Part shown: positions 26,919 to 60,354 of the stretch, piece after piece
How positions within the stretch are numbered: the stretch's first letter is position 1
Layout of the letters: the number at the start of each line of letters is the position of its first letter
Source of the DNA: Burkholderia sp. BCC0322
GTDB lineage: Bacteria; Pseudomonadota; Gammaproteobacteria; Burkholderiales; Burkholderiaceae
Reading direction: 5' to 3'
NCBI RefSeq assembly: GCF_902833045.1
Contig: NZ_CADFDU010000001.1
Span: 1,240,673-1,304,672 of the forward strand
DNA length: 64,000 nucleotides
Program-made: the position numbers and the translations under genes
Notes under the pieces: generated by a model
Told to the model about the DNA's origin: nothing
The model's database searches: none
The model's input: only the letters and a program-made list of their open reading frames with translations

Positions 26919-26934
26919 GGTACGGTGCCGTACC
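26919..26934. promoter_or_regulatory. Island palindrome GGTACG-GTGC-CGTACC
   Basis: This is a perfect copy of the recurrent 16-bp palindrome. It lies between the leftward slipin gene (start 26784) and the rightward HicB-like/NdvB operon (27112), so it could serve both. Confidence 0.65.
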
Positions 26935-27111
26935 TCGATCGAGCGCGTTGTGCCTGACTGACCGGGTGGCGAGGCATCGGGCGATCCGGGGTGTGAACGG
27001 CGGGCAGGTCACCACGAAACGTGCCCCGCAGACTGTTCTTCAGCGTACCGACTCGTCGGGCCGCCGCGACGCATGATGACGTTCGTCGTCATTTTCTGTC
27101 GGGAGCGGTTC

Positions 27112-27564
27112 ATGAAATATCCGGTCTATATCACGCATCACGGGAATCCCCGCTATCGCGGCGCGCTTCCGGATTTTCCGGAAATCGATGTGGAGGGCGA
27201 CTCGTATGGCGAGTTGCAGGCGGCCGCGGCGCGACAGGTCATGGCCTGCTATGACCGCTCCGCGCGTCTCGTGCCGCCGCCGACCACGGACATGGCGATA
27301 TTGCAGGCGTCGGATGTCGACCGGGGTAACGGAATCTGGCGGTTCTTCGATATCGACCTGACCGGCGTGACCTCGAGTTCCGTGCGGATCGCGCTGTGCC
27401 TGCCGAAGCGCATCGTGCGCGACATCGACATGACGGCGAGCGCGCTGCGCATGACTCGCGACGCGTTCGTGTCGATGGCGTGCGCGAACGCCGCCGACCG
27501 ATCCGCGCAGCATCGCGACGTGCGTTTCGAACCCGTCGCGAAATCGCTGTCGGAAGCTGGTTGA
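27112..27564 (+). CDS. HicB-like domain protein
   Basis: From ATG 27112 (GGGAGC site) the product is 150 aa. The N-terminal half resembles the HicB partial RNase-H fold (YPVYITHHGNPRYRGALPDFPEIDVEGDSYGEL). The C-terminal half carries a ribbon-helix-helix-like segment (VRIALCLPKRIVRDIDMTASALRMTRDAFV). HicB proteins are antitoxins to HicA, but no HicA gene is next to it. Its stop codon overlaps the ATG of the giant glucan synthase gene, so it may instead act as a regulator coupled to that gene. Confidence 0.72.
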   Translation: MKYPVYITHHGNPRYRGALPDFPEIDVEGDSYGELQAAAARQVMACYDRSARLVPPPTTDMAILQASDVDRGNGIWRFFDIDLTGVTSSSVRIALCLPKRIVRDIDMTASALRMTRDAFVSMACANAADRSAQHRDVRFEPVAKSLSEAG

Positions 27565-30500
27565 TGGAGCGACGCACCGCGTATGACGACGGACGGGTGG
27601 TGCGGTCATTGGGAGAAGGTGCGTTGAAGATTCACGTTGCGCGTGTTTCGCGACGCCGGACATCGCCATGGAGCAATGCACGGCCGATTCGCGAGGAGTT
27701 CTTCGGCGATGAACGGCTTGCGCAGCATGCGGGCAGTCTGGCGCGTGCGCAGAAGGTACTTCCCGGGGCGCCCTCTGGCCCGTCTCTGGCGACGCGGCTG
27801 AAGGACAACGCGGATCATCTGCTGAAGGCGTACCGGAACACGGTGGCCGCAGATGCGCGCGGCGAGGAAATCACGCCGGCAGCGGAGTGGCTGCTCGACA
27901 ACTACTATCTTGTCGCGGAGCAGGTGCGGCAGATCCGCGACGATCTTTCCCCGCGCTATTACCGGCAACTTCCCAAGCTCGGCAACGGGCCGTTTGCCGG
28001 TTATCCGCGCGTATTCGAGATCAACTGGTCGTTCGTCGCCCATACGGACAGCCGTTTCGATCCCGATATGCTATGCCGTTTCATGCTTGCCTATCAGGCC
28101 GTGGAACCGCTGACGATCGGCGAACTGTGGGCAGTGGCGATCACGCTGCGGATCGTCTTGATCGAAAACCTGCGGCGGCTCGCGGACCAGATCATCGACG
28201 ATCGGCGCGCGCGACTCGACGCCGACGCGCTCGCGGATCGCCTGCTCGGCGAACGCGGGCAGGCGCGGGAGGAAATGGAGCCGCTCGTCGCCCGTTATGA
28301 GCAGGCCGTATTGCACGATGCGTTCGCAGTGCAACTGATTCAGCGGCTGCATGATCCCGATCCGGCCGTCGTGCCGGCGCTGGCGTGGCTGCATCGGCAC
28401 CTGGCGGCGCGCGGCGCGACGCCGGACCAGATCGTCGCCTCCGTCAACCATCAGCAGGGCGCCGCCAGCCTGACCGTGCGCAACGTGATCACCAGCATGC
28501 GGCTGATTTCGGAGGTGGACTGGACCGATCTGTTCGAGCGCATCAGCCTGGTCGATCAGGTGCTGCGCAGCCATCCGGGCTTCGCGGAGATGGATTTCCC
28601 CACGCGCAACCTGTATCGCGACGCGGTGGAAGCGCTTGCCCGCGGCGCGCCCGTCAGCGAACTCGAGATTGCCCGCCGCGTCGTCGCCGATGCAGCGGCG
28701 CAAGGGGCGAGCCGCGTGCCGGCCGCCGACGCGGTGCCGGCCCGCGAGACGGACCCCGGTTACTACCTGCTGGCGGACGGCCGCACCGCGTTCGAGGCGG
28801 AGATCGGCTATCGGCCGCCCGTTGCGTTGTGGTTGCGGCGCCTGACGCGCCACGCCGGTCTCGGCGGCTATCTCGGCCGTATCGGGCTGATTGCGGCACT
28901 GCTGCTCACGGCCATGCTGGCGTGGCTCACTCGCATCGAGCCGCCCGGTCACTGGCTGATCTGGCTCGGCGTCGCCGGCCTGCTACCCGCGCTGGATACC
29001 GCGATCGCGCTCGTCAATCGCAGCGTGATGCGCGATGTCGGTGCGAAGATCCTGCCCGGCCTCGCCTTGCTCGACGGCATTCCGCCGGGCCTGCGCACGA
29101 TGGTCGCCGTGCCGGTGCTGCTGACGACGGAAGCGGCGCTCGGCGAGCAGATCGAGCAACTGGAAATTCATCACCTGGCGAGCCCTGACGGCGCGCTTTA
29201 CTTCGCCTTGCTCTCCGACTGGGTGGACGCGCCCACCCCGCACGCAGACAGCGACGACGGGCTGCTGGCATCCGCGGCGGCGGGTATCGACCGGTTGAAT
29301 CGCCTTTATCCGGCGGCGCCGGGCGAGGGCGAGCGCTTTCTGCTGCTGCACCGCAAGCGCGTGTGGAACGACGGCGAACGGTGCTGGATGGGCTGGGAGC
29401 GCAAGCGCGGCAAGCTGCACGAGCTGAACCGGTTGCTGCGCGGGGCGTCGGACACGACATTCATCTCGCTGGCAGGCAGGCCGCCGCGCGTGCCGCCTGA
29501 CGTGCGCTACGTGATCACGCTCGATGCCGATACGCGGTTGCTGCGCGATACCGTGCGCCGCCTGATCGGCAAGATGGCGCACCCGCTCAACCGGCCGGTA
29601 TTCGATTCGGCGAGCCGGCGCATCGTCGAAGGCTACGGCGTGCTTCAGCCGCGCGTCACGTCGTCCCTCGCAAGCGGTGACGAGGGGTCGCTGTTCCAGC
29701 GCGTGTCGTCGAGCGCGCACGGCATCGATCCCTACGTGTCGGCCGTATCGGATGTCTACCAGGATCTGTTCGACGAAGGCTCCTATGCGGGCAAGGGCAT
29801 CTACGACGTCGACGCGTTCGAGGCGGTGCTCGCCGGCCGCGTGCCGGAGAACACGGTGCTCAGTCACGATCTGTTCGAAGGCATTTTCGCGCGGGCCGGG
29901 CTGGCGTCGGATGTCGAGGTCGTCGAAGCGTCGCCGTCCCGCTACGACGTCGCGGCGGGACGCCTGCACCGGTGGGCGCGCGGGGACTGGCAGCTCCTGC
30001 CTTGGTTGATTTCCGGCCATGAACGGCTGACGGCGGTCGGCCGCTGGAAGATGCTGGACAACCTGCGCCGCACGCTCACGGCGCCCGCCATGCTGATCGC
30101 GCTACTGGCCGGATGGATGCAGCCGCTCCCCGTATCGCTGGGCTGGAGCGCCTTCGTGCTGGTGATGATCGCGCTGCCGTTCCTGTTGCCCGTATTGAGC
30201 GGACTGGTGCCGCGCTGGCGGCGCACGCATGTCAGGATGACGACGCGCAGCGTGCTCCATGCGTGGTCGATGGAGCTGCGCTTCGCGTTGACGCGGTTCG
30301 GCCTGTCGATCGTCATGCTGCCGCAGCAGGCGTGGTCGATGGGCGACGCGATCGCGCGTACGCTGTTTCGCTTGGGGATCAGCCGTCGCCACCTGCTCGA
30401 ATGGACGACAGCGGCCGCAGCGGGCGCGCGCGACCGGCGGACCCTCGCGTCCACCTATCTGCAAATGCGCGGCGGCGTGACGCTCGCGCTGCTTGCTGCG

Positions 30501-33500
30501 GCTGCCAGCCTGACGGCGGGCTGGCGCTTCGATCGTCATACGGGCTGGCTGGCCGTGCCGTTCGCACTCGTCTGGCTCGCCGCGCCGGCGATCGCGTATT
30601 GGCTGAGCCGTGCACCACGGCCGGCGGGCGAACTGGCGGTGACCCCGCACGATGCGCGTCAACTGCGGCTCGACGCGCGCCGGACCTGGCGTTATTTCGA
30701 GACGTTCGTGACGGCGGACGATCAGATGCTGCCGCCGGACAATTTCCAGGAGGACCCGAAGCCCGTTTGTGCGCGCCGGACTTCGCCCACCAATATCGGG
30801 CTGTACCTGTTGTCCGTCGTCAGCGCCCGCGAGTTCGGCTGGCTCGGCACGCAGGACGCGGTGTCGCGGCTGGAGGCGACGCTCGCGACGATGCGGCTGA
30901 TGTCGCGCTATCGGGGCCATTTCTACAACTGGTACGACACGCGCGACCTGCGGCCTCTCGAGCCGCGGTATGTATCGTCGGTCGACAGCGGCAATCTTGC
31001 CGGGCACCTGATCGCGCTCGGCAACGGTTGCCGGGCGTGGGCGAATCAGCCCGCTGGCGTGGGATGGCAGGCCGCGCATGAAGGGATCGGCGATACGCTG
31101 GCGCTGTTGCGCAAGGCCGTGTGCCGAAATGGCGACGCCCGGACGGCCTTGCACGGCGAATTCGAGCGGGCCGCGACCGAACTGGAGGACACGCTCGCCG
31201 CGACGGACGGCCGCGCCGCGACGGAATGGAACGCGATCACGATCCTCGCTGCGACAGTCGCCGACGTCGCGCGCGCGCTGATGGACGAGGTCGGCCGGGT
31301 GCGGGGCGGCGACGTCGACGACGTGCTGTTCTGGGCGCAGGCGCTGGAGCACGGGGTGCAAGGGCATTGTCGTGACGCGACGCGTACGCCGGACGAAGCG
31401 GACGTGCTGAACAAGCGTCTTCAGGTGCTGGCCGATTCCGCGTTGCAGATGGCCTATGCGATGGAGTTCGGCTTTCTGCTCGACCCGGTGCGGAACCTGC
31501 TTTCGATCGGCTATGCCGTGGCCGACGGCCAGCGCGATCCGGGCAACTACGACCTGCTGGCGTCGGAGGCTCGCCTGGCGAGCTTCGTCGCGATCGCGAA
31601 AGGGGATGTCCCGGCGCGCCACTGGTTCCGGCTCGGCCGCCTGGCGACGCCGATCGGGCACGGCGCCGCGCTGGTCTCGTGGTCGGGATCGATGTTCGAA
31701 TACCTGATGCCGTCGCTTGTGATGCGCGCGCCGGACAGCAGCCTGCTCGCGCGGACCAACCATCTGGTGGTGCGTCGGCAGATCGCCTATGGCGACGGGC
31801 TGCGGCTGCCGTGGGGCATGTCCGAGTCGGCGTACAACACGCGCGACATCGAGCTGACCTATCAGTACTCGAGCTTCGGCGTGCCGGAGCTGGGACTCAA
31901 GCGCGATCTCGACCAGAATCTGGTGGTTGCACCCTATGCGACCGCGCTGGCGGCGATGGTCGCGCCGCATGCCGCCGCGTGCAACTTCGAACGGCTGCGC
32001 ACGGCCGGCGCGTGCGGGCGCTTCGGCTTCTACGAAGCGCTCGACTATACACCCGCGCGCGTGCCGGAAGGCGTGCCGGTTGCCATCGTGCAGGCGTTCA
32101 TGGCGCATCACCAGGGCATGTCGATCGTGGCGATCGCCAATGCGTTGCTGGGCGGGCGCATTCGTACCTTCTTCCATGCGGAACCGGCCGTTCGAGCCAC
32201 CGAGCTGCTGTTGCAGGAGCGGGTGCCGGGCCGGGTCGCGGCAGGGCGGCCGCGGGTCGACACGCGCCCCGCCGGCAGGATGCATGGGATCGATGCCGGC
32301 GTGGCGCGGCGCCTGCTGTCCGCGAACGATCCCGCCCCCGTCACGCATCTGCTGTCCAACGGCCGCTATGCCGTGATGCTCACGGCCGCGGGGTCCGGCT
32401 ACAGCCGTCGCGACGATCTGGCCGTTACGCGCTGGCGGGAGGACGCGACGCGCGACGATTGGGGCAGCTATCTGTATCTGCGAGACGCCGAGAACGGAGA
32501 CGTCTGGTCGGCCACATGGCAGCCCACTGGCGTGGTACCGGACAGCTACGACGTGACGTTCACCGAGGATCGCGCCGAGTTCGTGCGTCGCGACGGCACC
32601 TTGACGACGTCGCTCGAGGTGGTGGTATCCGCCGAGGACGACGCAGAGGTGCGTCGGGTGTCGGTAGCCAACACGGGCACCCGGCCGCGCGTGATCGAAT
32701 TCACGTCGTACGCGGAAATCGTGCTCGCGCCGGCCGCCGCCGATCACGCGCATCCCGCATTCTCGAAGCTGTTCATCGAGACCGAGTACATGCCGGCATC
32801 CGGCGCCATCCTGGCGACGCGCCGCAAGCGCGCGCCGAACGAGGCGGAGGTTTGGGCCGCTCATCTGGCGGTGACTGCCGGCGAAACCGTCGGCGCGGAA
32901 GAATTCGATACCGATCGATTGCGTGTCATCGGACGCGGACGCAGCGTTCGCTTGCCGCTTGCGCTGACCGAACGGCGTGCGCTGAGCGCTTCCGAAGGCG
33001 CGGTGCTGGACGCGGCGTTCACATTGCGGCGGCAACTGCGCATCGAGCCGGGCGCGAAGGCGAGCATCGTCTACTGGACCATCGTCGCGGATTCGCGCGC
33101 GCAGTTGCTCGATCTGGTCGACAAGCATCGCGACGGCGAATCGTTCGCGCGTGCGGCGATGCTCGCGTGGACCCAGGCGCAGGTGCAGCTGCGGCACAGC
33201 GCGGTGAGCCTCGACGAGGCCGCGTTGTTCCAGCAACTGGCCGGATACATGCTCTACAGCGATGCGTCGATGCGGCCGGGCTCCGCGGCGCTGCTGCGCC
33301 ATGCGGCGGCGATATCGGCGGCGGGCGGCGTGGGCGCGTCGCCGTTATGGACGCATGGCGTATCGGGGGATCTGCCGATACTGCTGGTCCGGATCGACGA
33401 CATCGAGCACATCGCCATGGTGCGGCAGTTGATTCGCGCGCACGAGTACTGGCGGATGAAGCGGCTCGAGGTCGATCTGGTCATCATCAACGAGCGCGCG

Positions 33501-36248: not shown

Positions 36249-36271
36249 GGCGACGGGGCGGCATTCGGGCC

Positions 36272-36287
36272 GGTACGTTAGCGGACG
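36272..36287. promoter_or_regulatory. Island palindrome, variant (GGTACG-TTAG-CGGACG)
   Basis: The left arm is perfect and the right arm has the CGGAC variant also seen at 41550 and 51895. It lies 122 bp before the small lipoprotein gene. Confidence 0.45.
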
Positions 36288-36409
36288 GACTGTGCGCGAT
36301 TCACCGCCCATCATGAACCGACGTCCCGAACTTCATCGGGATGTCAGCGCATGGGCTTCCGTGCGTCGTGCCGGATCGGACGGCGCGGCGGCAACCCGAG
36401 GGGATGATC

Positions 36410-36628
36410 ATGAGAAAGCTACATTCCATGGCAGTCGAGATGGCGATCGTCACGTTGACGATCGTCGTGCTGGCGGGTTGCGGCGGTATGTCTCGCCGCG
36501 GAACGGATACCGTGATCGGGGCGGGTGTCGGTGGCGTCGCCGGCGCGGTCCTGACGGGCGGCAGTGCGTTGGGCACGGTGGGCGGCGCGGCCGTCGGCGG
36601 CGTTGTCGGCAACCAGGTCGGGAAATAG
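36410..36628 (+). CDS. Glycine-zipper lipoprotein (OsmB/SlyB-like)
   Basis: This 72-aa protein has a signal peptide ending in the lipobox LAGC, then a glycine-zipper membrane segment (VIGAGVGGVAGAVLTGG, GTVGGAAVGGVVGNQVG). An ATG at 36404 is also in frame, but 36410 is better spaced from the GAGGGG site. OsmB-type lipoproteins are made under osmotic and stationary-phase stress, which fits the neighbouring osmoregulated glucan synthase. Confidence 0.85.
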   Translation: MRKLHSMAVEMAIVTLTIVVLAGCGGMSRRGTDTVIGAGVGGVAGAVLTGGSALGTVGGAAVGGVVGNQVGK

Positions 36629-36716
36629 GCCGGCCGACGGGTAGGGAATCGGCACGCGCACTCGCCGTCGCGGCGAAGCGCGCGCGGATACATGCGTGAC
36701 CCGGAGTGCGACCGGT

Positions 36717-37898: not shown

Positions 37899-37962
37899 TC
37901 CCGGCACGCCGGTGACCCGCCATGCGGGACCGGTCTGCCACAGGGTGCGGCGCAAGCGCCGC

Positions 37963-38142: not shown

Positions 38143-38194
38143 GAATCGCTCCTGAGTGAGGTGTGCTCGCGTCGGGTCGGATGCGGCGGACGGA

Positions 38195-38925: not shown

Positions 38926-38991
38926 CGCGCATGCGTCGACCAGGCGAGACCGGATTTTGTCCTGTACAACGATTCATGGATCCATGAGGCA

Positions 38992-39626: not shown

Positions 39627-39661
39627 CACACTGCTCCTTGACATGGGTCGCCTGCTTGATC

Positions 39662-39887
39662 GGTACGAAACCTGGAACCATCGAAGCGTCGTATCGGGCG
39701 CTTTACGCGGAACAGCCGGTGCGCCCGAAGACACACTGAGCGCAATCGCGATGGAAGTCGGTACGATGCCGTACGCGGATCGCCGCCGGTGCGCCAGCGT
39801 ATGCATGCGGGCGGCGGTTGGATCGATCGCCGCGAAGTCAGGTTGAGAAGGTTGTCTGTTTTTGCAGGCTTGGTACGCTTTCGTACC
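39662..39887. promoter_or_regulatory. Island palindromes between CsbD and SYLF genes
   Basis: Two full sites lie here: GGTACG-ATGC-CGTACG (39760-39775) and GGTACG-CTTT-CGTACC (39872-39887). A left half-site lies at 39662-39667. The last full site is 59 bp before the SYLF gene start, similar to the 55-bp spacing at the SYLF paralogue. No other gene is visible in 39627-39946. Confidence 0.65.
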
Positions 39888-39946
39888 GCATTCGCATTCG
39901 CCTGTGTGTAGCGTCAGGGGTATCCACGAACAACCTGGGGTGAATC

Positions 39947-41296: not shown

Positions 41297-41460
41297 GAGC
41301 TTCTCCGGTGAATGCCGCTTCGCATGGATCCGGCCGCTAGAACCGGATCGCGGCGAGTACATCGGCAATGTGTCGGCGCGTTGTGGCGCCGAACGCGTAT
41401 CGGCATCGGCAGCGCATGCGCGCGTGCCGACCCAGAATGGACGAGCGAACAGCGGAAGTC

Positions 41461-41565
41461 GGTACGATGCCGTGCAGTGGCGGCTGGCGTCGCTTCGGAC
41501 CGGCAAGCCGATGATTTGCGCCGATGTCCGCGATAATCCGCACGCGTCCGGTACGTTGCCGGACA
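41461..41565. promoter_or_regulatory. Two island palindrome variants
   Basis: GGTACG-ATGC-CGTGCA lies at 41461-41476 and GGTACG-TTGC-CGGACA at 41550-41565. The second shares its flanks with 51895-51910. They lie in a 569-bp gap between the small leftward gene and the DUF3309 gene. Confidence 0.5.
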
Positions 41566-41865
41566 GACTCCACGCGCGCGTCCGCCTACATTGATAGCGA
41601 AAGAGTCGATGCACGTCCCGAACCGGGTGCATCGAGCACGCGTCCTGCATGAAGGAGCAGGACGACTGACTCCCCGGCTCCTCCGGCATTCGAGATGCGG
41701 CACCGCCCATTTCGACGCGACAGGCGGCGAACGGCGCGTGCGCGCGTCGACGTGGAAGCGCACGGGAGCGTATCGACGGACACATCGGTTCGATTGCATT
41801 CGATGGCCATCGTTGCGAGCGCACTGCGCCATGACCCGCCGGATGATTGATTGAGGAGAGACGAC

Positions 41866-42024
41866 ATGTCACTGGGACTTCTTCTACTGATCGTTGTCGT
41901 GCTGCTGATGGTCGGGGTGATCCCGACCTGGCGCTACAGCAACGGCTGGGGGTATGGTCCAAGCGGATTGCTGGGCGTGGTATTGGTCGTGTTACTCATC
42001 CTGATGCTGCTGGGCAGGCTGTGA
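41866..42024 (+). CDS. DUF3309-type small membrane protein
   Basis: The 52-aa product follows a TGAGGAGAG site. It reads MSLGLLLLIVVVLLMVGVIP, then WRYSNGWGYGPSG and a second hydrophobic helix LLGVVLVVLLILMLLGRL. The GWGYGPSG turn between two helices is the signature of DUF3309 proteins, which are widespread small inner-membrane proteins of unknown role. Confidence 0.82.
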   Translation: MSLGLLLLIVVVLLMVGVIPTWRYSNGWGYGPSGLLGVVLVVLLILMLLGRL

Positions 42025-43441: not shown

Positions 43442-43823
43442 TTTGAACGTCCTGCATGGGTAACGTCGCGCTCGCCGCGCGTCGAGCGTCGAACGCAGGT
43501 CGCCATGCGGTGTCGTTCAGGCGGCACGCGGCACGCGCGGGACGGCACACACCGAACTGGGCGTCGATGCCTTGCATTCGTCGCACAATATCGCTCCGGT
43601 CGTACCACGTTCGCAGCGAGTCGATTCGGCGTCTGTCCGATGGCGGACAAAGGACCGGGCGCAACCGTCGCAACCATCGCGATCGAAATGACGCGTGGCC
43701 GCGGCTGACGCAGCCGGGAAAGTGCGCACGAAGCGGCATGCACCCATGTACGGTAGCGGGCAGAGCGGTGCAGTGCTTCGTCATAGACTGTTCGCCGATC
43801 CTCGTGACAACTGGAGCATGGCC

Positions 43824-44042
43824 ATGGCGCATACAGCAATCGAGGGAGATCTGCGTTCACTTGAACGACTCGTTGCACGCGTCACGCTCGGTGAGCCTGC
43901 GCCATGGGCTCTCTGGCGCATTCGGCTGGAATCGATCCTGGAACACGGCTGCGTGACACCCTCGGAGCGCATGCATCTCGTCAGCATCATCGCCCTTCTC
44001 CTCATGCTCGAGCGTCGAGCGGGCAAGCTGGCCGCGCATTGA
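43824..44042 (+). CDS. Small hypothetical protein upstream of pgm
   Basis: The 72-aa product from ATG 43824 (or 43818) follows a TGGAG site. It reads MAHTAIEGDLRSLERLVARV and then LESILEHGCVTPSERMHLVSIIALLLMLER, a helical protein of unknown function. It is 122 bp before the phosphoglucomutase gene. A degenerate palindrome (TGTACG-GTAG-CGGGCA) lies at 43747-43762. The rest of 43442-43817 shows no gene. Confidence 0.5.
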   Translation: MAHTAIEGDLRSLERLVARVTLGEPAPWALWRIRLESILEHGCVTPSERMHLVSIIALLLMLERRAGKLAAH

Positions 44043-45886: not shown

Positions 45887-45909
45887 TACGCGCATGGGCC
45901 GCCCAACGG

Positions 45910-47985: not shown

Positions 47986-48065
47986 GCAGCTGCTCCCTGG
48001 CGTCCTGTCACGCGATATCCCGCATGGAAGGGGGTTGCGTTGGCTACCCGTTGCGCGGGTCAGCG

Positions 48066-48851
48066 TTATCGGTCTCCGTGCCAATAGCCGTGCTTGCCGT
48101 AGAACTCGTGCAACTCGATCTCGTAGCTGCGATGAACGAGCTGCGAGTCGTCGTATGGAGGGCTCTGGCGGATCGCGTCGCGCGTGAGCGTGGTCGATAC
48201 CGTTTCCGTGGGCCAGTCCACCTGGTCGAGCCAGTGAGTCGCGATCAGCACTTCCTTGCCGGTCGACCACCAGCTCGACGTGTCGATTGCCAGATAGCGG
48301 ATCACCCAGGCTTCATCGTCGTAAATGAAGTCGGACACGTGACCGAGATGTCCGTCCTTGGCTTCGAGCCGATATCCGTCGACCTCGCCGGTGCTGCGCA
48401 GATGCGTATCCGCCGCTGTGCCGGCCGGCGCGGTGTGCGGGAGAAGCGGATCGCCCGCGTCGGCGTCCTGCGACGGCCCGGCGGGATCGAAAGCAGGGTA
48501 TGCGCCCATTCCCCAAAGGTTCGGGCCACCCCAGTAGGTCGGGTAGTTGTAGTAACGCAGGTACTCGATCTCGTGCTGGCGCGATACCGGCTTGTGCGTG
48601 TCCACATTCGGACTGTCCCTCACCTGCTGTTGCGTGAGGCTGACGTATAGCGTACGGGTCTCGGGATCGGCATGCGTGACGGAATATGGCGAGACCAGCA
48701 CTTGCCTGTCGTGCAGCCAGTCGCCCGTCTCGACGACGAGGTAACGGATGCACCAGTTGCCATCGTCGAAGTAGGCCTGGTGGATGTGGCCGATATCGCC
48801 GTCCTTCGCTCGAACCGTGTCTCCGTGCAACCTTCGAATGCTTCGCAACAT
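48066..48851 (-). CDS. Protein with two PRC-barrel domains
   Basis: The 261-aa soluble protein starts at ATG 48851 (GAGGAC site). It has two PRC-barrel repeats: [29 protein letters not shown] ... VLVSPYS at the N-terminus and [21 protein letters not shown] ... [13 protein letters not shown] near residue 155-210. A Pro/Gly/Tyr-rich linker joins them. PRC-barrels are small beta domains of unknown biochemical role, common in stress-related genes. It is divergent from the palindrome at 49018. Confidence 0.88.
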
Positions 48852-49017
48852 GATGTCCTCGCCAGAGCGATGCCCGGCACGTCGGTGATCCGGCTGAACT
48901 GCCTGTCACACCGTGGCATCCAGTCGTTCGTCCGTTGGTGCCGAGCGATTCCTGCCGATCGCGCCCCCTCGGATGGTCGGCATGGTTGAAACGCTACACG
49001 CGCCGAATGGCCGATGC

Positions 49018-49033
49018 GGTACGAAACCGTACA
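49018..49033. promoter_or_regulatory. Island palindrome GGTACG-AAAC-CGTACA
   Basis: Near-perfect copy, 167 bp upstream of the two-PRC gene, within the 350-bp gap 48852-49201 that otherwise shows no gene. Confidence 0.6.
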
Positions 49034-49201
49034 AAGCATGCACCCGCTTGAGCACGGGGGTGATCCATCCGGCGGCGAGCCGTCCTTCCCGATATGTCGC
49101 GGAACATTCTCTCGGTCTTCGTCGTCAGGATCGCGAAGCAGTTAGGATCAACACGTCGACGGGCTGCCGGGCGACCGAGGCTGCCGGATTCGGTTCGTGT
49201 C

Positions 49202-49522
49202 TCAGCGCAGCCGCAGCGGCATGAACAGCGAGATGCCCGGTGCCGGTACCGGCGCGTAAACCATCGGAGGCGCGCCATACGCATACTCCTCGTCGCCGTC
49301 ATAACCGTCGTGGCCACCGTTCCGGTAATGGCCGTAGTGACGACCATCCTGATGTGTCATGCGCGCGTGATTGCCCTGGTCCAAACCGTGATTCATTCTC
49401 TCCGCATGCAACGGCGGTGCGGCGAAAAGGCAGCCGATCGCGACTATCAGGCCGACGAGTCGCATGCCCGATCTCGGCGCCATTGTGGTTCGACGTGCAT
49501 GTCCGATAGAAACGTCCATCAT
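49202..49522 (-). CDS. Secreted His/Tyr/Gly-rich small protein
   Basis: The 106-aa product starts at ATG 49522 behind AGGAG. It has an N-terminal signal peptide (MRLVGLIVAIGCLFAAPPLHA). The short mature region is rich in His, Gly and Tyr (HYGHYRNGGHDGYDGDEEYAYG) and ends in a hydrophobic stretch. The His-rich part could bind metal. The family is unknown. Confidence 0.6.
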   Translation of the reverse strand: MMDVSIGHARRTTMAPRSGMRLVGLIVAIGCLFAAPPLHAERMNHGLDQGNHARMTHQDGRHYGHYRNGGHDGYDGDEEYAYGAPPMVYAPVPAPGISLFMPLRLR

Positions 49523-49598
49523 GTTCTCCTGTGTACGAATCCGGAATCCGCTGGTCAGTGACTGCCATCGACAGCCGGTATCGGCGGACGGTCCGGAA

Positions 49599-50087
49599 CT
49601 ATTGTTTCTTGATCAGGTGGTGGTCGTTGCCACGGAAAATCGCATCCGCGTTCTGCTTTTGCGTATTGGACATGCTGTCGTACAGCGGCTGAAATGCCGT
49701 GGTCAGCTTTTTGACGCCATCGGCGTGCACGTTGGCGACATCGCCATAGGAGTGGAGATCGTCCATCGCGCTCATGCTGCTCGCATGATCGCTACGGATC
49801 TTCCTGAGCGTCTCCATCGCTTTCGCGTTGTCCCGCATCACCTGCGCGACTGGCTGCCACAGGGATTCCTGGCCGGGTGTGATGCCAAGTCGCTGGTGCA
49901 GGCTGTTGATGCGCCCGTCGACCGACTTTTGGGCGGCCACGGTCATGACGTGGGGCGGTGACCGGTCCGGTGCGGGTCCGGCGGCCTTCGAGAGTTGGGG
50001 GAAGACGGCTGCGCCGAAGGCGACTGTTGCCGCCAGGGAGAACGCGTAGGCAATCTTTCGGGGGGCGGCGAGAAGAGCGGGTGTCAT
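49599..50087 (-). CDS. Spy/CpxP-like periplasmic protein (LTXXQ-type)
   Basis: From ATG 50087 the product is 162 aa with a signal peptide (KIAYAFSLAATVAFGAAVFP). The mature part is helical and has VDGRINSLHQRLGITPGQESLWQPVAQVMRDNAKAM and LTTAFQPLYDSMSNTQKQ, the layout of Spy/CpxP-related proteins with LTxxQ-like motifs. Those are envelope-stress chaperones. It lies 76 bp upstream of the His-rich secreted protein gene, in the same direction. Confidence 0.75.
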   Translation of the reverse strand: MTPALLAAPRKIAYAFSLAATVAFGAAVFPQLSKAAGPAPDRSPPHVMTVAAQKSVDGRINSLHQRLGITPGQESLWQPVAQVMRDNAKAMETLRKIRSDHASSMSAMDDLHSYGDVANVHADGVKKLTTAFQPLYDSMSNTQKQNADAIFRGNDHHLIKKQ

Positions 50088-50314
50088 GGTGGATCCTGAT
50101 GAAATTTCTGAAGGAGTCGACGTACCGCGACTCACTCGGTCGACGGAAAATTCGGCCCGGTAGCGTAGCTATACGCGGGACGCGTGGCTCAGTCTGTCCG
50201 ATGCCGGACGGTTTGCCGGTGCGCGTGGCTCGTCTCCCGATGCGCGGCGCTTCGCGGTGGCTCGCGATCCGCGTCCAGCGGAATTTTCAAATCGGGCCTA
50301 TGCTGGCATCGTAA

Positions 50315-50587
<273 letters not shown>

Positions 50588-50807
50588 CGCAGTTTGCACG
50601 GCGCGGCGCGGGTCAGCGCCCTGCGTGACCGCGATCCATCGAGTCGTCGCCGGTATTCAGCGATATCGCTGATCGAGGAGGTATCGATCGTGGCGATGGC
50701 GCGCCGATGTTCCCGGTGTACAGGGTAGCCGGATGAGACGTTGCCACGGAGATATCGGGTCGCTTCCACGCATTCGCGTGGCGCCAGGGGCACGTTCGGG
50801 AAAGGCC

Positions 50808-50823
50808 GGTACGATGCGGCGCA
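50808..50823. promoter_or_regulatory. Island palindrome, degenerate
   Basis: GGTACG-ATGC-GGCGCA keeps only the left arm. It is located 8 bp past the stop of the Crp/Fnr gene, so any role is doubtful. It shares the ATGC spacer with the sites at 39760 and 41461. Confidence 0.3.
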
Positions 50824-50830
50824 GTAGCGG

Positions 50831-51550
50831 CTAGAGTCGCTTCAGATCGGGAAGCAGGCGATCGAATTCGCGTTTGACCACCCCATAACATTCGCACACG
50901 CGCTTTTCGAGCCCAGGGCGATCCAGCACCTCGATATGGCCGTAGTTGTAGCGGATGAGGCCCGCGTCCTGCAGCTTCAGTGCCGCTTCCGTCACGCCCG
51001 ACCTGCGCACGCCCAGCATGTTGGCGATCAGTTCCTGCGTCATGCGCAGCTGGTTCGAAGGCAGGCGGTCGAGGCTGAGCAGCAGCCAGCGGCAAAGTTG
51101 CTGGTCGATCGAGTGATGTCGGTTGCACACCGCGGTCTGGGCCATCTGCGTGATGAGCGCCTGGGTATAGCGCAACAACAGGCGCTGCATCGCATTGCCG
51201 CGCCGGAATTCTTCTTTCAGGATGCGCGCGTCGAGCCGGTAGGCCTGCCCCGCGCTTTGCACGACGGCGCGGCTCGGCGTCGTTTCGCCGCCCATGAACA
51301 GCGACACGCCGATCATGCCCTCATGGCCGACGATCGCGATTTCAGCGGACGAGCCATCCTCCATCACATACAGCAGCGACACGATCGACGTGGTCGGAAA
51401 ATAGACGTGATGCATCTGGCCGCCCGACTCGTACAGCACGTTTCCCAACGGCATGTCGACAAGGGTCAGGTGGGGGGCGAGGTGCGCGCGTTCGTTTTCC
51501 GGCAGCGCGGCAAGCAGGTGATTTTCGGTAATGGGCGGGTTGTCCTGCAT
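50831..51550 (-). CDS. Crp/Fnr family transcriptional regulator
   Basis: The 239-aa product starts at ATG 51550 (AGGAGCC site); the frame to 51679 is not needed. A cyclic-nucleotide-binding-like domain spans about residues 25-145 (LGNVLYESGGQMHHVYFPTTSIVSLL, IAIVGHEGMIGVSLFMGG). A winged HTH follows near 175-215 (MTQELIANMLGVRRSGVTEAALKLQDAGLI). There is no N-terminal Cys cluster, so it is not an oxygen-sensing FNR with a 4Fe-4S centre. The signal is unknown. It is a candidate local regulator of the island. Confidence 0.9.
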   Translation of the reverse strand: MQDNPPITENHLLAALPENERAHLAPHLTLVDMPLGNVLYESGGQMHHVYFPTTSIVSLLYVMEDGSSAEIAIVGHEGMIGVSLFMGGETTPSRAVVQSAGQAYRLDARILKEEFRRGNAMQRLLLRYTQALITQMAQTAVCNRHHSIDQQLCRWLLLSLDRLPSNQLRMTQELIANMLGVRRSGVTEAALKLQDAGLIRYNYGHIEVLDRPGLEKRVCECYGVVKREFDRLLPDLKRL

Positions 51551-51894
51551 GCGTGGCTCCTGCGCTCGCGCCCGGAAGGTGATGGAGAATCCGGCCGATA
51601 TGGGCGCAGCGGGAATCGGCGGGACCAGACAACCATCATACTTTACCGATCCGACGACCGGACGGGAGGGCGGTGCCAATGCGTCCTTTTTTCGATGAGT
51701 TCGGAATGACCGTTCGAATGCGAATCTGCCTTCAAAAATTATAGTGTCGGCACATGTCTCATCAAGGTGCGCGCAATCACGCGCACTCGATATGGAACCG
51801 ATATTTCACGTAGCGGTTGACGGGAAATCGCGGTCGCGAGGCCTGCCCGGCGTCGACCGCGGAACGGTGTGCACGCGATGAATCGCGTGCGTCC

Positions 51895-51910
51895 GGTACG
51901 TCGCCGGACA
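51895..51910. promoter_or_regulatory. Island palindrome variant (GGTACG-TCGC-CGGACA)
   Basis: It is located in the 479-bp gap between the Crp/Fnr and SYLF copy 2 genes and shares extended flanks with 41543-41567 (GCGTCCGGTACGT, CGCCGGACA). I see no gene between 51551 and 52029. Confidence 0.45.
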
Positions 51911-52029
51911 AGCTCCGTGCACGAGTAAGTTTATGAGGGTATCAGGCGCGTTGAATTCGGATCCGCCGCCACGCCATCGGATCGCCGTGTTGGCCGGTTC
52001 GTTCGCCCGGCAGGCCTTGAGCGTGAGCG

Positions 52030-52620
52030 CTACAGCGCCGTCAGCTTCGTGATCTTCGTTCCTTCGAGCGTCACACCCGCCATCAATCCGCTGTTCGTCA
52101 TGACAAACGCTTCGATCGGCGTGGTCGCGGTGCTGGTGTCGACGTTGCCGTTCGCGCCGACCTTTAGTACCGCCACCGATGCATCGCCGCCCGCCGACCA
52201 GCCTTCGCTGTTACGGAAGCGATCAAGCGCATCCGCTGTCATGAACAGGAAAATGATGGCTTTCGATTGCGCGCCGATCTGCAGCCCGATCGAGCCTGTC
52301 GTGGTGCTGTAGTACCCGACCGTGTTTCCGGCAACGCGCAGCGAGCCTTCACCGTACTGACCGCCGATCCCAAAGCCGGCCGCGATGACGGACGGGAACA
52401 CCAGTACGCCACGCGCCTTGCCGACGAGCTCATGCGAGCCGTTGGCGCTCGTGTAAAGGCGTGCAAGGGTCGAGTCGACGCCTGCATCGATGGTGTGGCG
52501 CTTGTCGACCTGATGGCCGCTGGCGTCGGATGTGCCGGTCATCGTGCAACCCGAAACCGCAAGAGAAATGGCAAGGATGGATCCCGGCGTACCCCATATG
52601 AATGTTCGTCGCAGCATCAT
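52030..52620 (-). CDS. SYLF (Ysc84) domain lipoprotein, copy 2
   Basis: A 196-aa paralogue of the protein at 39947, in the opposite orientation. About 21 of 195 residues differ. The lipobox (AVSGC), Tat-like RRTFIW and the whole SYLF domain are kept. A CAGGAG site lies before ATG 52620. The upstream palindrome at 52676-52691 is 55 bp from the start, matching the 59-bp spacing of copy 1, so the promoter was duplicated along with the gene. Confidence 0.88.
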   Translation of the reverse strand: MMLRRTFIWGTPGSILAISLAVSGCTMTGTSDASGHQVDKRHTIDAGVDSTLARLYTSANGSHELVGKARGVLVFPSVIAAGFGIGGQYGEGSLRVAGNTVGYYSTTTGSIGLQIGAQSKAIIFLFMTADALDRFRNSEGWSAGGDASVAVLKVGANGNVDTSTATTPIEAFVMTNSGLMAGVTLEGTKITKLTAL

Positions 52621-52675
52621 CGTCTCCTGGTGGTTGCTGGAGCTTCAGACGCTACGCCAGGGCGGCTGCGGACGC

Positions 52676-52691
52676 GGTACGACAGCGTACA
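52676..52691. promoter_or_regulatory. Island palindrome GGTACG-ACAG-CGTACA
   Basis: A near-perfect copy upstream of SYLF copy 2. A CCGTACA half-site lies near 52907. No other gene is visible in 52621-53076. Confidence 0.62.
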
Positions 52692-53076
52692 AAGACGCAA
52701 CACCTTCCTCGGCCCGCGTTTCGTTCAGCGTTGCAGCGGGCGCGTCACGTCCGGCGTGTCGATTTTGGCAAGCCGACAACGGAGATGGTCCGTGCCGGTC
52801 GATGTCGCGCAACCGGTCCGGCAACGTATGTCAAATCGTATTACGAAGAATCACGATGGCGACAAGGCGCGTCCACCTGTCCGCCTCCACAAGCGTTCTT
52901 CACCGTACAGACACGCAATCTCGTCGACAGCAGGATGTCTCGTGCAACCATCCATTCGTGCACGATCTTTTCACGAACATCGACGTGGTTCACATCTGTG
53001 GAGAATGATTCCGTCATTCGTCTCCGGTCGATCAAACGAAGCGCCACACTCGGATGCGACTGGTAAGGAGAGCAAC

Positions 53077-53310
53077 ATGAGTTCATTGACCTATGTCTGT
53101 CTTGCCGCTATTGCAACCGTGCTTGCCGGATGCCTTTGGGTACCCGGCGACGGCTATCGTGGTGATCGAGGCGGGGGGTATGGCGGTTCGTATGGAGGTG
53201 GTCACGAAAGCGGGTGGAATCAAAGTGGCCCTTCCCGCGACCATATGAATCACTCCGGGCATGCCGACGACCAGGGCGCGCATGGGTCCGGGCAACGGGA
53301 AGGATGGTAG
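53077..53310 (+). CDS. Small Gly/His-rich lipoprotein
   Basis: The 77-aa product starts at ATG 53077 behind AAGGAG. The signal peptide MSSLTYVCLAAIATVLAGC ends in a lipobox. The mature part is Gly-, His- and Ser-rich (GYGGSYGGGHESGWNQSG, HMNHSGHADDQGAHGSGQ), without a recognised fold. It is probably outer-membrane anchored. The function is unknown. Confidence 0.72.
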   Translation: MSSLTYVCLAAIATVLAGCLWVPGDGYRGDRGGGYGGSYGGGHESGWNQSGPSRDHMNHSGHADDQGAHGSGQREGW

Positions 53311-53563
53311 GTCGGCTGCGGTCATCACATGAAACCGGCCAACCATGTTCCTTCAGGCATGGTTCGTCGTGACCGATGTCACGACTGCGCAATGGAAAGC
53401 TGTGCCGGCGCAGTTCGATCGGCGGCACGCCGCACGCCTTCGCGGTGGTGCCCTCGGTCAATCACTTCGGGTACCGAACCACGTCTGGTGCGCGGCATGA
53501 ATAGTGGATTCGGTCCTGCAATCAACAGTTGTCGCGCCGCTCCGAGCGTTTATGGATTAAGAC

Positions 53564-54850
53564 ATGGTTCCGTCTGAAAAACTCAATAGCGATGTCGATA
53601 GCCAGGCCGACTCGTGGCTGACGAAGCTCGGACCTGGACTGATCACCGGTGCGGCGGACGACGATCCGAGCGGCATTGCCACCTATTCGCAGGCGGGTGC
53701 GCAATTCGGCTTCGACATGCTGTGGACCGTCCTGTTGACCTATCCGCTGATGGTCGCCATTCAGGTCGTGAGCGCGAGGATCGGCCGGGTGAGCGGCCAT
53801 GGTCTCGCGACGAATCTGCGACGTCATTACCCGCGGTGGCTGCTGTATGGCACCGTCATCCTCCTGCTGGTGGCGAACACGATCAATATCGCGGCCGACC
53901 TGACGGCCATGGGCGCAGCCGTCAATCTACTGGTCGGCGGCCCCACGCGGGCTTACACGGTCGGATTAGGCGTGTTCTCGCTGGTGTTGCAGATGTTCGT
54001 GCCGTACCGCAGGTATGTCCGCATCCTCAAGTGGCTCACCCTGGCGCTGTTCGCCTACGTCGGCGTGATCTTTGCGGTCCAGATCCCATGGGCGACCGTG
54101 GCGCTGCGCACGGTACTTCCGCACGGCTCGTGGAGCACCGGCTACGTCACGACGGTAGTCGCCGTGTTCGGCACGACCATCAGCCCGTACCTGTTCTTCT
54201 GGCAGGCGTCACAGGAGGTCGAGGAACTGCAGGCGAAGAAGGAGCAGCAGGCGCTGACGAAAATGCCGTCGCAAGGGCCGGCAAACCTGAGCCGCATCCG
54301 CCTTGATACGTCGATCGGAATGGCATTTTCCAATCTCGTTGCGTTTTTTATCATTCTCACGACTGCGGTCACGCTGCATGCGCACCATATCACCGACATC
54401 CAGACGTCGGCGCAGGCCGCCTCCGCATTGAAACCGATCGCCGGCCAGTTTGCGTTCCTGCTCTTCAGTCTGGGCATCATCGGCACGGGGCTGCTCGCGC
54501 TGCCGGTGCTGGCCGGCTCGGCGGCCTACGCGATGGCCGGCACGTTCAAGTGGAGAAACAGCCTCGCGCTCGAGCCGCAACTGGCGAAACGGTTCTACGC
54601 GATCATCGTGCTCGCGACGGTCGTGGGCCTCGCGCTCGATTTCACGTCGATCGACCCGATCAAGGCGCTGTTCTGGAGCGCGGTCATCAACGGCGTCACG
54701 TCGGTACCGATCATGGTGCTGATGATGCTGATGGCGTCGAACCAAAAGGTCATGGGCACCTTCGTCACGCCCGTGCTGCTGCGGTGGGTGGGGTGGCTTT
54801 CAACCGGTGTGATGGGCGCCGCCGTGATCGCGATGTTCGTTTTCATCTGA
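53564..54850 (+). CDS. Nramp-family divalent metal transporter, atypical motifs
   Basis: The 428-aa protein has about 11 membrane helices. The TM1 region reads GLITGAADDDPSGIATYSQAG, where canonical Mn/Fe transporters have DPGN. The TM6 region is FGTTISPYLFFWQASQEVEE, without the usual MPHN. It belongs to the Nramp-related branch whose metal preference differs or is unknown. A cytoplasmic loop rich in Lys and Gln follows. It stands alone between small genes, with no close partner. Confidence 0.85.
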   Translation: MVPSEKLNSDVDSQADSWLTKLGPGLITGAADDDPSGIATYSQAGAQFGFDMLWTVLLTYPLMVAIQVVSARIGRVSGHGLATNLRRHYPRWLLYGTVILLLVANTINIAADLTAMGAAVNLLVGGPTRAYTVGLGVFSLVLQMFVPYRRYVRILKWLTLALFAYVGVIFAVQIPWATVALRTVLPHGSWSTGYVTTVVAVFGTTISPYLFFWQASQEVEELQAKKEQQALTKMPSQGPANLSRIRLDTSIGMAFSNLVAFFIILTTAVTLHAHHITDIQTSAQAASALKPIAGQFAFLLFSLGIIGTGLLALPVLAGSAAYAMAGTFKWRNSLALEPQLAKRFYAIIVLATVVGLALDFTSIDPIKALFWSAVINGVTSVPIMVLMMLMASNQKVMGTFVTPVLLRWVGWLSTGVMGAAVIAMFVFI

Positions 54851-54882
54851 GCATCGGTTCCGATCGTTCCTTTTCTCGGCCC

Positions 54883-54898
54883 GGTACGGCGCCGTACC
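54883..54898. promoter_or_regulatory. Island palindrome GGTACG-GCGC-CGTACC
   Basis: A perfect copy, 33 bp after the Nramp gene stop and 227 bp before the PRC-barrel gene. The whole 16 bp is symmetric, spacer included. Confidence 0.65.
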
Positions 54899-55124
54899 GA
54901 CTTCGTCTCCCGGCTGCGCGCATCGTTGCGACTCGCTCTCCCTCTTCAATGCACCGGACGCTCAGCGTGAGCGGCAGGTGCGCAGCGGGTAGGGCGGCCA
55001 GAGGCGACACCTGTCCGGCACGTAACCGTTCATATCGCGTGACCGGTGCGTGCTGTCCATCGCGGCGAGCCGGCGAGCCGGCGATCCGCGCCGGCGTCCT
55101 GCGAAATGAACCCAGGAGGGAATC

Positions 55125-55595
55125 ATGACGATACTAGACCCGACCCATCGGCCATCGACCAGCGATACAGGTGCGGCGATTGTCGGCAGTGGGGCCGGCG
55201 ACGGACCCGGCCCCAACGTGATGGAAGCCGATACGCTCAAGGGAAACAAGCTCTTCACGTCCGACCGGCTGGAGATCGGGAGGATTTCAGACATCATGCT
55301 GGACGTACGCAGCGGCCGGGTTGCCTATGCCGTGCTGTCAAGCGGGGGCTTTCTCGGTATCGGCGGAAAACTTTACGCCATTCCGTGGAGTGCGCTGACC
55401 CTGGACACGGACGAAAAATGCTTCCGGCTCGACGTTACCGCAGACCACGTGAAAAATGCCCCCGCGTTCGACAAGGACCATTGGCCATCGATGGCGGACG
55501 AGCAGTGGGGCTCGTCGCTTCACCAGTTCTACAATCGGCAGCCGTACTGGGCAGCGACCCGAGACGTCGCCATGAATCGTCCGCCCGCACATTGA
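55125..55595 (+). CDS. PRC-barrel domain protein (module copy 1)
   Basis: The 156-aa protein follows a CAGGAGGG site. A PRC-barrel domain spans about residues 38-110 (LKGNKLFTSDRLEIGRISDIMLDVRSGRVAYAVLS, then KLYAIPWSAL). The next 40 residues (AFDKDHWPSMADEQWG) are shared with the paralogue at 57249. Together with the CsbD gene at 55735 it forms a PRC-CsbD pair that is repeated downstream. Confidence 0.88.
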   Translation: MTILDPTHRPSTSDTGAAIVGSGAGDGPGPNVMEADTLKGNKLFTSDRLEIGRISDIMLDVRSGRVAYAVLSSGGFLGIGGKLYAIPWSALTLDTDEKCFRLDVTADHVKNAPAFDKDHWPSMADEQWGSSLHQFYNRQPYWAATRDVAMNRPPAH

Positions 55596-55734
55596 AACGC
55601 CCTTGCCAGCCGGTAAAAATATGGATATCTGATGATTTTTATCGAATACCGATTAACCGGTCGGACGGTGTCATCACCTGACGGCAACAGATAGCAGCAG
55701 CATCCACAGATCAGTTACGTATTGGAGCTCTACC

Positions 55735-55908
55735 ATGAACAAGGATCAAGTCAAGGGAACTGCGGAGAAGGTCAAAGGCAAGGTGAATGAGGTCATTGGC
55801 CGTGCCACGCACAACACGAAACAGGAAGTCAAAGGCGATCTCCAGCAAGCAGCCGGCCAGGCGCGCAAGAATCTTGGCGACGCCAAGGAAGCTGTCAAAA
55901 AAGTCTGA
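55735..55908 (+). CDS. CsbD family protein (module copy 1)
   Basis: The intact 57-aa CsbD protein begins MNKDQVKGTAEKVKGKVNEV and ends DAKEAVKKV. A TTGGAG site precedes ATG 55735. It is 139 bp after the PRC gene. CsbD proteins rise strongly under general stress in many bacteria. Its closest relative here is the shortened copy at 57850. Confidence 0.88.
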   Translation: MNKDQVKGTAEKVKGKVNEVIGRATHNTKQEVKGDLQQAAGQARKNLGDAKEAVKKV

Positions 55909-56217
55909 TTGGACACGGAGGCTTCATGAGGGGGGCTATTCCCCTCTCGGACGGTGCTTCACGCATCGTGCCAACCTCACTGCGGCTACTACCGTACAGA
56001 CATGCGCTGTCGGATGCGAGAACGTCAAGTTTCGTCCTTCGCGCACGGGGTCCCGGCCCCCGTCGCGAGGCGCGTCCTCGAACCGATAACCGGCTCAATC
56101 GCGCAAGTCTTTGCTGCGGCAAAATGCCGGGTATCGCTGGAAGCTTCGCCAGCGTGGCTCCGTGGCCCACAAGCCGCGCAGCAGATCAGGTTGGCGTCTA
56201 ACTTGAGGGGAGTTGCC

Positions 56218-56292
56218 ATGAACAACATTGTCTGGCTCGTTGGAGCCGTGGTCATCGTTCTGTTCGTCCTCGGCTATTTGGGATTGAGATAG
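56218..56292 (+). CDS. 24-aa single-helix membrane peptide
   Basis: A strong GAGGGGAG site precedes ATG 56218, which codes for MNNIVWLVGAVVIVLFVLGY and four more residues. It is one hydrophobic helix, typical of small regulatory or structural inner-membrane proteins that annotation often misses. The 309 bp before it (55909-56217) show only a CCGTACA half-site at about 55993. Confidence 0.55.
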   Translation: MNNIVWLVGAVVIVLFVLGYLGLR

Positions 56293-56389
56293 GGCATCCT
56301 GTTCACGTGCTCGTCGCGCAATGGCTGGTCAACGATCGCGATCAAAACGATCCAGGTCGCGACAGCCATCGTTTATCGCAGGAAGCAAA

Positions 56390-56560
56390 ATGAAAACGCT
56401 CAAGATCATCGGCTGTGCGGGACTCGTGGCCGTCGCGATCATTCTGCTCGTCGCAATGTGCGCGATCCTGGAGGACGGCATGATTTCTCACGATGCGCAG
56501 CGACCGGGACTGACCGGCAACCCGCTTTCCACCCCCGAATCGCCGAATCACTTCGGTTAA
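56390..56560 (+). CDS. Small membrane-anchored hypothetical protein
   Basis: The 56-aa product starts at ATG 56390 with a CAGGAAG site. An N-terminal hydrophobic segment (IIGCAGLVAVAIILLVAMCAI) precedes a short polar tail (GLTGNPLSTPESPNHFG). It could be a single-pass membrane protein or carry an uncleaved signal. It lies 97 bp after the 24-aa gene. Confidence 0.6.
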   Translation: MKTLKIIGCAGLVAVAIILLVAMCAILEDGMISHDAQRPGLTGNPLSTPESPNHFG

Positions 56561-56766
56561 GTAACCCGCCACCGGCTGACCGTTCCCGACTTGCTTTGAG
56601 TGACCCCGTCATGCGGAGGGTGGAGGCGCATACGCCATTGTCGATGTCCGCATGGATCGAAAATCGGCATTCCATTTTCAATCGACGCTTGAGACCAAGG
56701 CGGCGTCGCAACAGGCGGTCGGTGACCGCTCCCATGCTGCGACCGCATCACTGCCGTTCCCGCATG

Positions 56767-56782
56767 GGTACGGCAGCGTACG
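56767..56782. promoter_or_regulatory. Island palindrome GGTACG-GCAG-CGTACG
   Basis: A near-perfect copy in the 688-bp gap (56561-57248) before the second PRC gene. A weaker symmetric site, GATACG-GCAA-CGATCC, lies at about 57022. I see no real gene in this gap, although a frame is open through it. Confidence 0.6.
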
Positions 56783-60350: not shown

Positions 60351-60354
60351 GCGA

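Follow-up and report, generated by a model that had tools for sequence, protein, structure and literature searches.

What protein, if any, reads a short palindrome that recurs between the genes of a single island in Burkholderia sp. BCC0322? The palindrome, GGTACG-N4-CGTACC, lies in a 64,000-nucleotide stretch of contig NZ_CADFDU010000001.1 (positions 1,240,673 to 1,304,672), which we call the window and number from its first letter. A sequence-only reading of the window had proposed that a dozen copies serve as operators for one dimeric regulator common to the island, with a Crp/Fnr-type and a LuxR-type protein encoded there as candidates. We found that the palindrome belongs to a larger unit, with a -10-like hexamer at a fixed distance, and that this unit very likely combines, as judged from sequence comparison, the operator of a Crp/Fnr-type activator with a class II promoter.

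The palindrome and its spacing to a -10-like hexamer

The recurrence of the palindrome in the island is real: with up to two mismatches allowed, the window contains 11 copies where 2.44 are expected, and none of 100 shuffles reached 11. All 11 are confined to 26.9-56.8 kb and, as the sequence-only reading had stated, none lies in 1-25 kb. Three are exact (26919, 39872 and 54883), four carry one mismatch (39760, 49018, 52676 and 56767) and four carry two (36272, 41461, 41550 and 51895). The proposed dozen is thus one copy too many at this threshold, as the twelfth, at 50808, has four arm mismatches. With gene starts set from annotated relatives on Burkholderia plasmids, the palindromes lie between genes and mostly 59-227 bp upstream of a gene start, close to the 55-230 bp first described; the exceptions are 51895 and 56767, for which no gene start was found within 320 bp downstream. 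The arms recur as described, but the spacer is not wholly free, its centre tending to pyrimidine-purine.

The palindrome alone had been taken as the unit, and the hexamer had been missed. Read toward the gene, the pattern [TC]AnnnT begins exactly 21 bp past the palindrome in nine of the 11 sites and 22 bp past it at 54883, leaving 51895 as the sole site without the pattern at either distance. On the opposite strand it was found at +21 in none of the 11, and its background rate is 1.5-1.7%. Where a site lies between divergent genes, the gene it faces was decided on after the hexamer had been seen. When no gene side was chosen, the composite of palindrome and hexamer (at most one mismatch) occurred 10 times in the window against 0.09 expected and in no comparable number in any of 100 shuffles, although the pattern counted was itself derived from this window.

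The composite is kept in relatives. Both arms and -10 are retained at the same gene across different species, and altered arms recur as well, such as GGTACGTTAGCGGACG upstream of the glycine-zipper gene. The distance from site to slipin gene is 135 bp in six of 10 loci and 138-140 bp in the remaining four; that from site to first PRC gene is 167 bp in 13 of 15 loci, with 166 and 142 bp in the other two.

If the hexamer is taken as -12 to -7, the palindrome would be centred at -41.5 relative to the predicted transcription start. Class II promoters of Escherichia coli CRP, for example galP1, have a 16-bp dyad at -41.5 and a -10 element with no good -35, and this constant spacing is what an activator that contacts polymerase requires. 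The island sites resemble them in dyad size and predicted geometry, in having a -10 without a good -35, and in a Crp-type helix-turn-helix in the candidate regulator. Because the -10 lies at a fixed distance from the palindrome, the operator would thus become a class II promoter. Transcription starts of B. cenocepacia are reported to have a -10 of TAnAAT (excerpt of PMC4603805), beside which island hexamers such as TAGCGT and CAGTGT are poor, as expected of an activator-dependent promoter. Position alone would also be compatible with a repressor that binds at the -35 region and blocks RNA polymerase. Repression is nevertheless quite unlikely, as the -10 is degenerate relative to the TAnAAT of that excerpt, the palindrome stands in place of a -35, and the constant -41.5 spacing is what a polymerase-contacting activator needs.

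Distribution of the sites and the candidate regulators

The Crp/Fnr-type candidate, crp, encodes a protein of 239 amino acids at 50831-51550 on the minus strand, with the start taken from an annotated relative (L040). Pfam matches to cNMP_binding (1.1e-7) and then HTH_Crp_2 (6.2e-14) place it in the Crp/Fnr superfamily. Among 65 same-genus genomes, we ran the genome-wide count that the sequence-only reading had suggested on the nearest (G001, 7.6 Mb) and found clustering in the island: six of its 33 palindromes with at most one mismatch, including two of the five exact ones, fall within one 30-kb stretch (C2:115,219-145,366). Of those six, four (both exact ones among them) fall in a block that shares 98% identity with window 25353-51828; the other two are just outside it. 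The exact palindrome occurs in 41 of the 65 genomes. In one of them (G050), 10 of 11 exact copies are on the two contigs that carry island-type Crp genes, whereas genomes that lack the island contain few copies, similar in number to a reversed control.

We asked how far the composite follows the gene for the island Crp, which is present at 82% identity or more in 16 of the 65 genomes. The exact composite was found in 14 of these 16 (80 hits, many of them homologous copies of the same promoters) compared with six of the other 49 (six hits). With the reversed control pattern, 10 of the 16 genomes had hits (13 in all), as did 18 of the 49 (26 in all). In three genomes (G020, G049 and G058), the single exact composite lies about 30 bp past the crp stop codon and points away from it.

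These distributions bear on the other explanation offered at the outset, that the sites are repeated extragenic palindromes without regulatory use. The palindromes are indeed short and intergenic, and two pairs of window sites have similar flanks. This explanation is contradicted by the fixed, oriented -10, by the conservation of arms and -10 at the same gene across species, by the clustering in islands, and by the same architecture with diverged flanks in other genera (below); it retains next to no probability. Repetitive extragenic palindromic (REP)-type repeats were likewise rejected, since we found neither genome-wide dispersal nor the lack of a fixed promoter relation.

The proposal of an operator for a dimeric regulator shared by the island is strongly supported by the sequence evidence, and its Crp/Fnr candidate fits; its LuxR-type candidate does not. 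The latter, a NarL/LuxR-type response regulator identified by Pfam (59430-60092, plus strand), could in principle read the palindrome, as could its near-universal paralogue of about 50% identity. Its gene lies in the window, 64 of the 65 genomes have a response regulator of that family at E 1e-50 or better, and NarL-type proteins can also bind short inverted repeats; the operator of TodT, a response regulator of the NarL/FixJ type, is a 6-N4-6 inverted repeat of the same size as ours. Unlike in such systems, neither the distribution nor the position of the window's response regulator fits. A close orthologue (92%) is present in one of the 65 genomes and absent at high identity from the other 64, and motif-rich islands exist without one: G001, whose island is 98% identical, has no relative above 50%. 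The paralogue, in turn, is too widespread to account for patchy sites. Furthermore, the response regulator gene has a composite site of its own (59322-59364, plus strand; N21, CATGCT; also found with one mismatch), so it looks like a target. Nor would this explanation account for the order-wide association with Crp or for sites before crp in other genera. We therefore rejected the response regulator as master on its distribution and its own site, and consider that either it or its paralogue is very unlikely to be the reader.

The association with Crp extends across the order. Of 300 Burkholderiales genomes, 97 carry the Crp subfamily at E 1e-60 or better. The symmetric A/A composite is present in 26 of these 97 and in four of the 203 others, and the symmetric G/G composite in 46 of 97 and five of 203; one or the other is found in 57 of 97 with the subfamily versus nine of 203 without it (p 2e-25, a value that overstates independence, as genomes, islands and sites are akin). 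Reversed controls show no such link (A/A, 25 of 97 versus 38 of 203, p 0.17; G/G, 10 of 97 versus 24 of 203, p 0.85), and genome size therefore does not account for it.

When genome contigs were scanned with the Crp alignment, 80 loci emerged. Of these, 23 are near (L075-L097; Burkholderia, Paraburkholderia, Trinickia and one Pandoraea metagenome-assembled genome), and the 57 far ones come from Variovorax, Polaromonas, Zoogloea, Dyella, Sedimenticola and others. Some near loci overlap or come from one genome (L077/L078, on one contig; L076/L080; L085/L086; L089/L092). The near set has 77 composites at +21, 11 at +22 and 0-7 at each other offset from 8 to 40, and the far set has 75 at +21, 13 at +22 and 1-13 at each of the remaining 31 offsets. 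At +21 in the far set, six control cores gave 1-4, and control cores, other gaps and other offsets yielded no comparable signal. Of the near loci, 22 of 23 have at least one composite and 21 of 23 the exact A/A composite; of the far loci, 42 of 57 have at least one composite. Far sites lie upstream of crp itself in 22 of 57 loci, in two of them at about 290 bp. Others lie upstream of genes for CsbD, Ysc84, DUF3309, SPFH, BON, DUF1003, DnaJ, phosphoketolase, acetate kinase and transaldolase, where downstream genes were picked by a simple score, some begin 200-320 bp past the hexamer, and 20 such proteins were run against Pfam for the 75 sites. CsbD, YSC84, DUF3309 and SPFH genes are also found in the window island, and BON and DUF1003 genes in a relative's island.

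Together, these results suggest a mechanism in which a homodimer of the island Crp would bind each palindrome, sit 41.5 bp before the predicted transcription start in place of the -35 element, and hold RNA polymerase on a weak -10, that is, class II activation. The genes for slipin, glycine zipper, CsbD, YSC84, PRC-barrel and other envelope, osmotic and stress proteins would then form one regulon, probably joined by Spy, an antiporter and the response regulator, and this regulon would move with its own activator. With promoters, regulon and regulator taken together, the evidence from sequence makes it quite probable that the island Crp is the activator.

We also considered that another Crp/Fnr paralogue uses the sites in addition or instead, for example the helix-turn-helix-Crp fusion of other islands or a neighbouring RRVGIT-type Crp. 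Several islands and many far loci have two or more Crp-type genes, some second Crp genes are themselves preceded by a site (L135, L140, L152 and L153), and Crp paralogues may share sites. Against this, the single exact composite in G020, G049 and G058 adjoins the gene of a Crp of 84-85% identity, and gene mapping of the window listed no fusion-protein gene. We regard the involvement of a paralogue as unlikely.

Several observations weigh against the island Crp as activator, in addition to the kinship of the genomes. The near and far loci were chosen by Crp, so that proximity of sites to Crp is there by design. No symmetric composite was found in 40 of the 97 Crp-carrying Burkholderiales genomes, and no composite in 15 of the 57 far loci. 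Outside G001, most symmetric hits are not close to any crp among those listed, with at least 15 of 46 A/A hits and at least 19 of 88 G/G hits within 20 kb of one. The reversed control gave 74 hits compared with 51 for A/A, a similar absolute number, such that only its distribution differs. A matrix scan of the window (described below) found no site before the window's own crp. Finally, two loci, L036 (in G015) and L037 (in G028), encode a Crp of 87-89% identity yet have no exact composite; L037 has one palindrome with one mismatch. The regulon may have shrunk or drifted in these two genomes.

The protein itself was compared with CRP and FNR. An AlphaFold model (mean pLDDT, predicted local distance difference test, 75) has a Crp fold with recognition helix 183-195; MtbCRP and GlxR are among its best structural matches, followed by NtcA and FNR. 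CRP contacts cyclic AMP through residues 71, 72, 82, 83, 127 and 128 (excerpt of PMC6603298); of these, 82, 83, 127 and 128 are not kept in the window Crp, in an alignment that is uncertain at 25% identity. C142, H145, H146, C153, C219 and C221 are invariant in 50 Crp sequences and would be suited to a redox or metal signal. FNR-class proteins have an N-terminal cysteine cluster for an iron-sulphur centre and act at TTGAT-N4-ATCAA sites with class II geometry. The island Crp shares superfamily and predicted promoter geometry with the FNR/Anr proteins of Burkholderia, but its site differs and it has no cysteine before residue 142, and thus no such cluster. The Crp relatives of about 48-50% identity in most same-genus genomes may be the Anr pair; B. 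cenocepacia H111 carries anr1 and anr2 (excerpt of PMC9104464).

Within the open-licence part of PubMed Central, and as judged mostly from titles and abstract openings, we found no earlier description of this Crp subfamily, no link of Fnr-family proteins with CsbD and PRC-barrel, or with YSC84 in Burkholderia, and no mention of a GGTACG palindrome in Burkholderia. Our results now allow a predicted binding site and regulon to be assigned to a widespread Crp subfamily, and suggest how a mobile island might have its small envelope and stress genes activated jointly on reaching a new host.

The half-site base and the recognition residue

Near and far loci differ at the third base of the half-site. 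After removal of sites at least 80% identical (leaving 48 of 77 near and 71 of 75 far sites), this base is A in 81, C in 13, G in two and T in none of the 96 near arms, and G in 67, T in 42, A in 32 and C in one of the 142 far arms. In E. coli CRP, changing Glu181 alters the preference at this base, and the classic CRP mutants that Ebright is said to have described in 1984 were altered at this residue. By alignment to E. coli CRP, the window Crp (recognition helix GVRRSGVTEAA) has Ser184 at that position. Serine is found there in 20 of 23 near loci, the others having Pro (L091), Ala (L092) and Glu (L097), and Glu in all 57 far loci. Thus Ser-type near loci go with GTACG half-sites and Glu-type far loci with GT[G/T/A]CG, many of the latter having the GTG core of E. 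coli CRP. This covariation also favours the island Crp as the activator. Table 1 of PMC12531629 gives Arg180, Glu181 and Arg185 as the specific base contacts of CRP. This trio is not preserved: it reads Arg, Ser, Glu in the window protein and Arg, Glu, Glu in most far relatives. The window system therefore departs from that of E. coli in its GTACG half-site, in these contacts as tabulated there, in an overall identity of 25%, and in the loss of several cyclic AMP contacts.

These data raise the possibility that a change of one residue rewired the operator code of a portable stress regulon. An ancestral Glu-type Crp would read GT[G/T/A]CG across Betaproteobacteria and some Gammaproteobacteria; Glu would have changed to Ser at CRP position 181 in the Burkholderia/Paraburkholderia lineage, with operators narrowed to GTACG and some GTCCG; and this recoded regulator would now spread jointly with its promoters, on an island shielded from the older network. 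Taken jointly, we consider this scenario tentative and rather less than even in likelihood. It would represent a natural case of specificity change, with diverged operators, at the residue altered in CRP mutants. Two points weaken the covariation as evidence, also for the island Crp as activator. In a tree of 50 proteins (the window Crp and 49 of the 80 loci), one well-supported branch (100/99) parts the Glu-type from the rest, so the Ser/Glu change is a single event and the covariation one data point. In addition, an A/A site is present in each of the Glu-type loci L097 and L100, and genomes such as G225, G291 and G350 contain both A/A and G/G composites; Glu hence tolerates A, and the change resembles a restriction of the accepted bases more closely than an outright exchange.

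Many far loci (L102, L103, L104, L106, L107, L109, L114, L117 and others) contain a tandem pair of Crp-type genes, in which the second gene, with the helix RRVGIT or RRVGVT, is separated from the first by about 0.8-0.9 kb. Judged by eye, T-type half-sites showed no clear split with respect to a neighbouring RRVGIT Crp.

Sites in the window and surroundings of the island

Ten composites in the window have the 21-bp spacing (N21). On the minus strand, they precede the genes for slipin/SPFH (26892-26934, with the palindrome at 26919-26934; CACACT; gene start 26784; conserved in relatives), CsbD (39733-39775; CAGTGT; 39626), a small hypothetical protein (41434-41476; one altered arm; CATTCT; 41296), PRC-barrel (48991-49033; TAGCGT; 48851) and a second YSC84 (52649-52691; TAGCGT; 52617). 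On the plus strand, they precede the genes for a glycine-zipper protein (36272-36314; one altered arm, recurring in relatives; CATCAT; 36404), YSC84 (39872-39914; TAGCGT; 39947), a small protein at 41649 and perhaps also DUF3309 at 41866 (41550-41592; one altered arm; TACATT), and a PRC-barrel protein with an uncertain start (56767-56809; TAGGGT), the tenth being that of the response regulator. The exact palindrome before another PRC-barrel gene (54883-54926, plus strand; gene 55125) has N22 and CATCGT, and +22 is the second-commonest offset in near loci. An orphan site (51895-51937, plus strand) has TATGAG at +21 and no downstream gene start that we could find; its palindrome is identical to one upstream of a small gene in a relative (L041:18846).

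A matrix was trained on L081-L097 only (17 of the 23 near loci, which supply 33 of the 48 thinned sites), with the window and its closest copies excluded. It found 15 window sites at 14 bits or more, compared with 0.2 per sequence in 20 random sequences that keep only neighbouring base-pair frequencies and whose largest score was 17.6. The new sites are 59322 (21.8 bits), 50195 (20.6), 43634 (19.8), 52894 (18.5), 43747 (15.4) and 59085 (14.5), the last two being weak and below the best random score. The site at 59322 is present in G020 too, where the whole region is 92% identical, so this is not an independent test. Two of the new sites have GTCCG arms and a weak -10, both on the minus strand: one before the Spy/LTXXQ gene (50168-50210; TATAGC; gene start 50087) and one before a Na+/H+ antiporter gene (43607-43649; GAACGT; 43441). 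The weak site at 43747-43789 (plus strand; N21, TAGACT) precedes a small gene at 43824. The low scores of 54883 (11.7) and 51895 (9.6) result from spacing and hexamer.

Two pairs of sites have similar flanks, 50808 with 41461 and 51895 with 41550, and promoter segments therefore seem to have been duplicated within the island. The copy at 50808-50823, with its four arm mismatches, looks as if it had arisen by duplication of the 41461 promoter region and then decayed.

Several Burkholderia species carry much of the island on plasmids or large replicons. Just before the island, at window 23234-24759, lie transposase-like open reading frames (DUF772 at 24115 and a weak HTH_23 at 23234), in line with a mobile origin. 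Beyond the response regulator, an FtsH-like gene is in pieces (60349-62412, plus strand; FtsH_ext at 60349-61179, AAA lid and M41 at 61540-62412) and is probably broken; in L016 and L040, too, M41-like pieces are found near GGTATGCCAGCGTACC. Other copies of the island encode the helix-turn-helix-Crp fusion (L040:32105-33205, minus strand; L041:8739-9761, minus strand; L016:16067-17164, plus strand). Its N-terminus is a HipB/XRE-like helix-turn-helix by a weak NCBIfam match (E 0.0096), and its C-terminal part is a Crp/Fnr protein, with the helix RRASVTETA at this gene in L075; the fusion would thus be a regulator with two putative DNA-binding domains.

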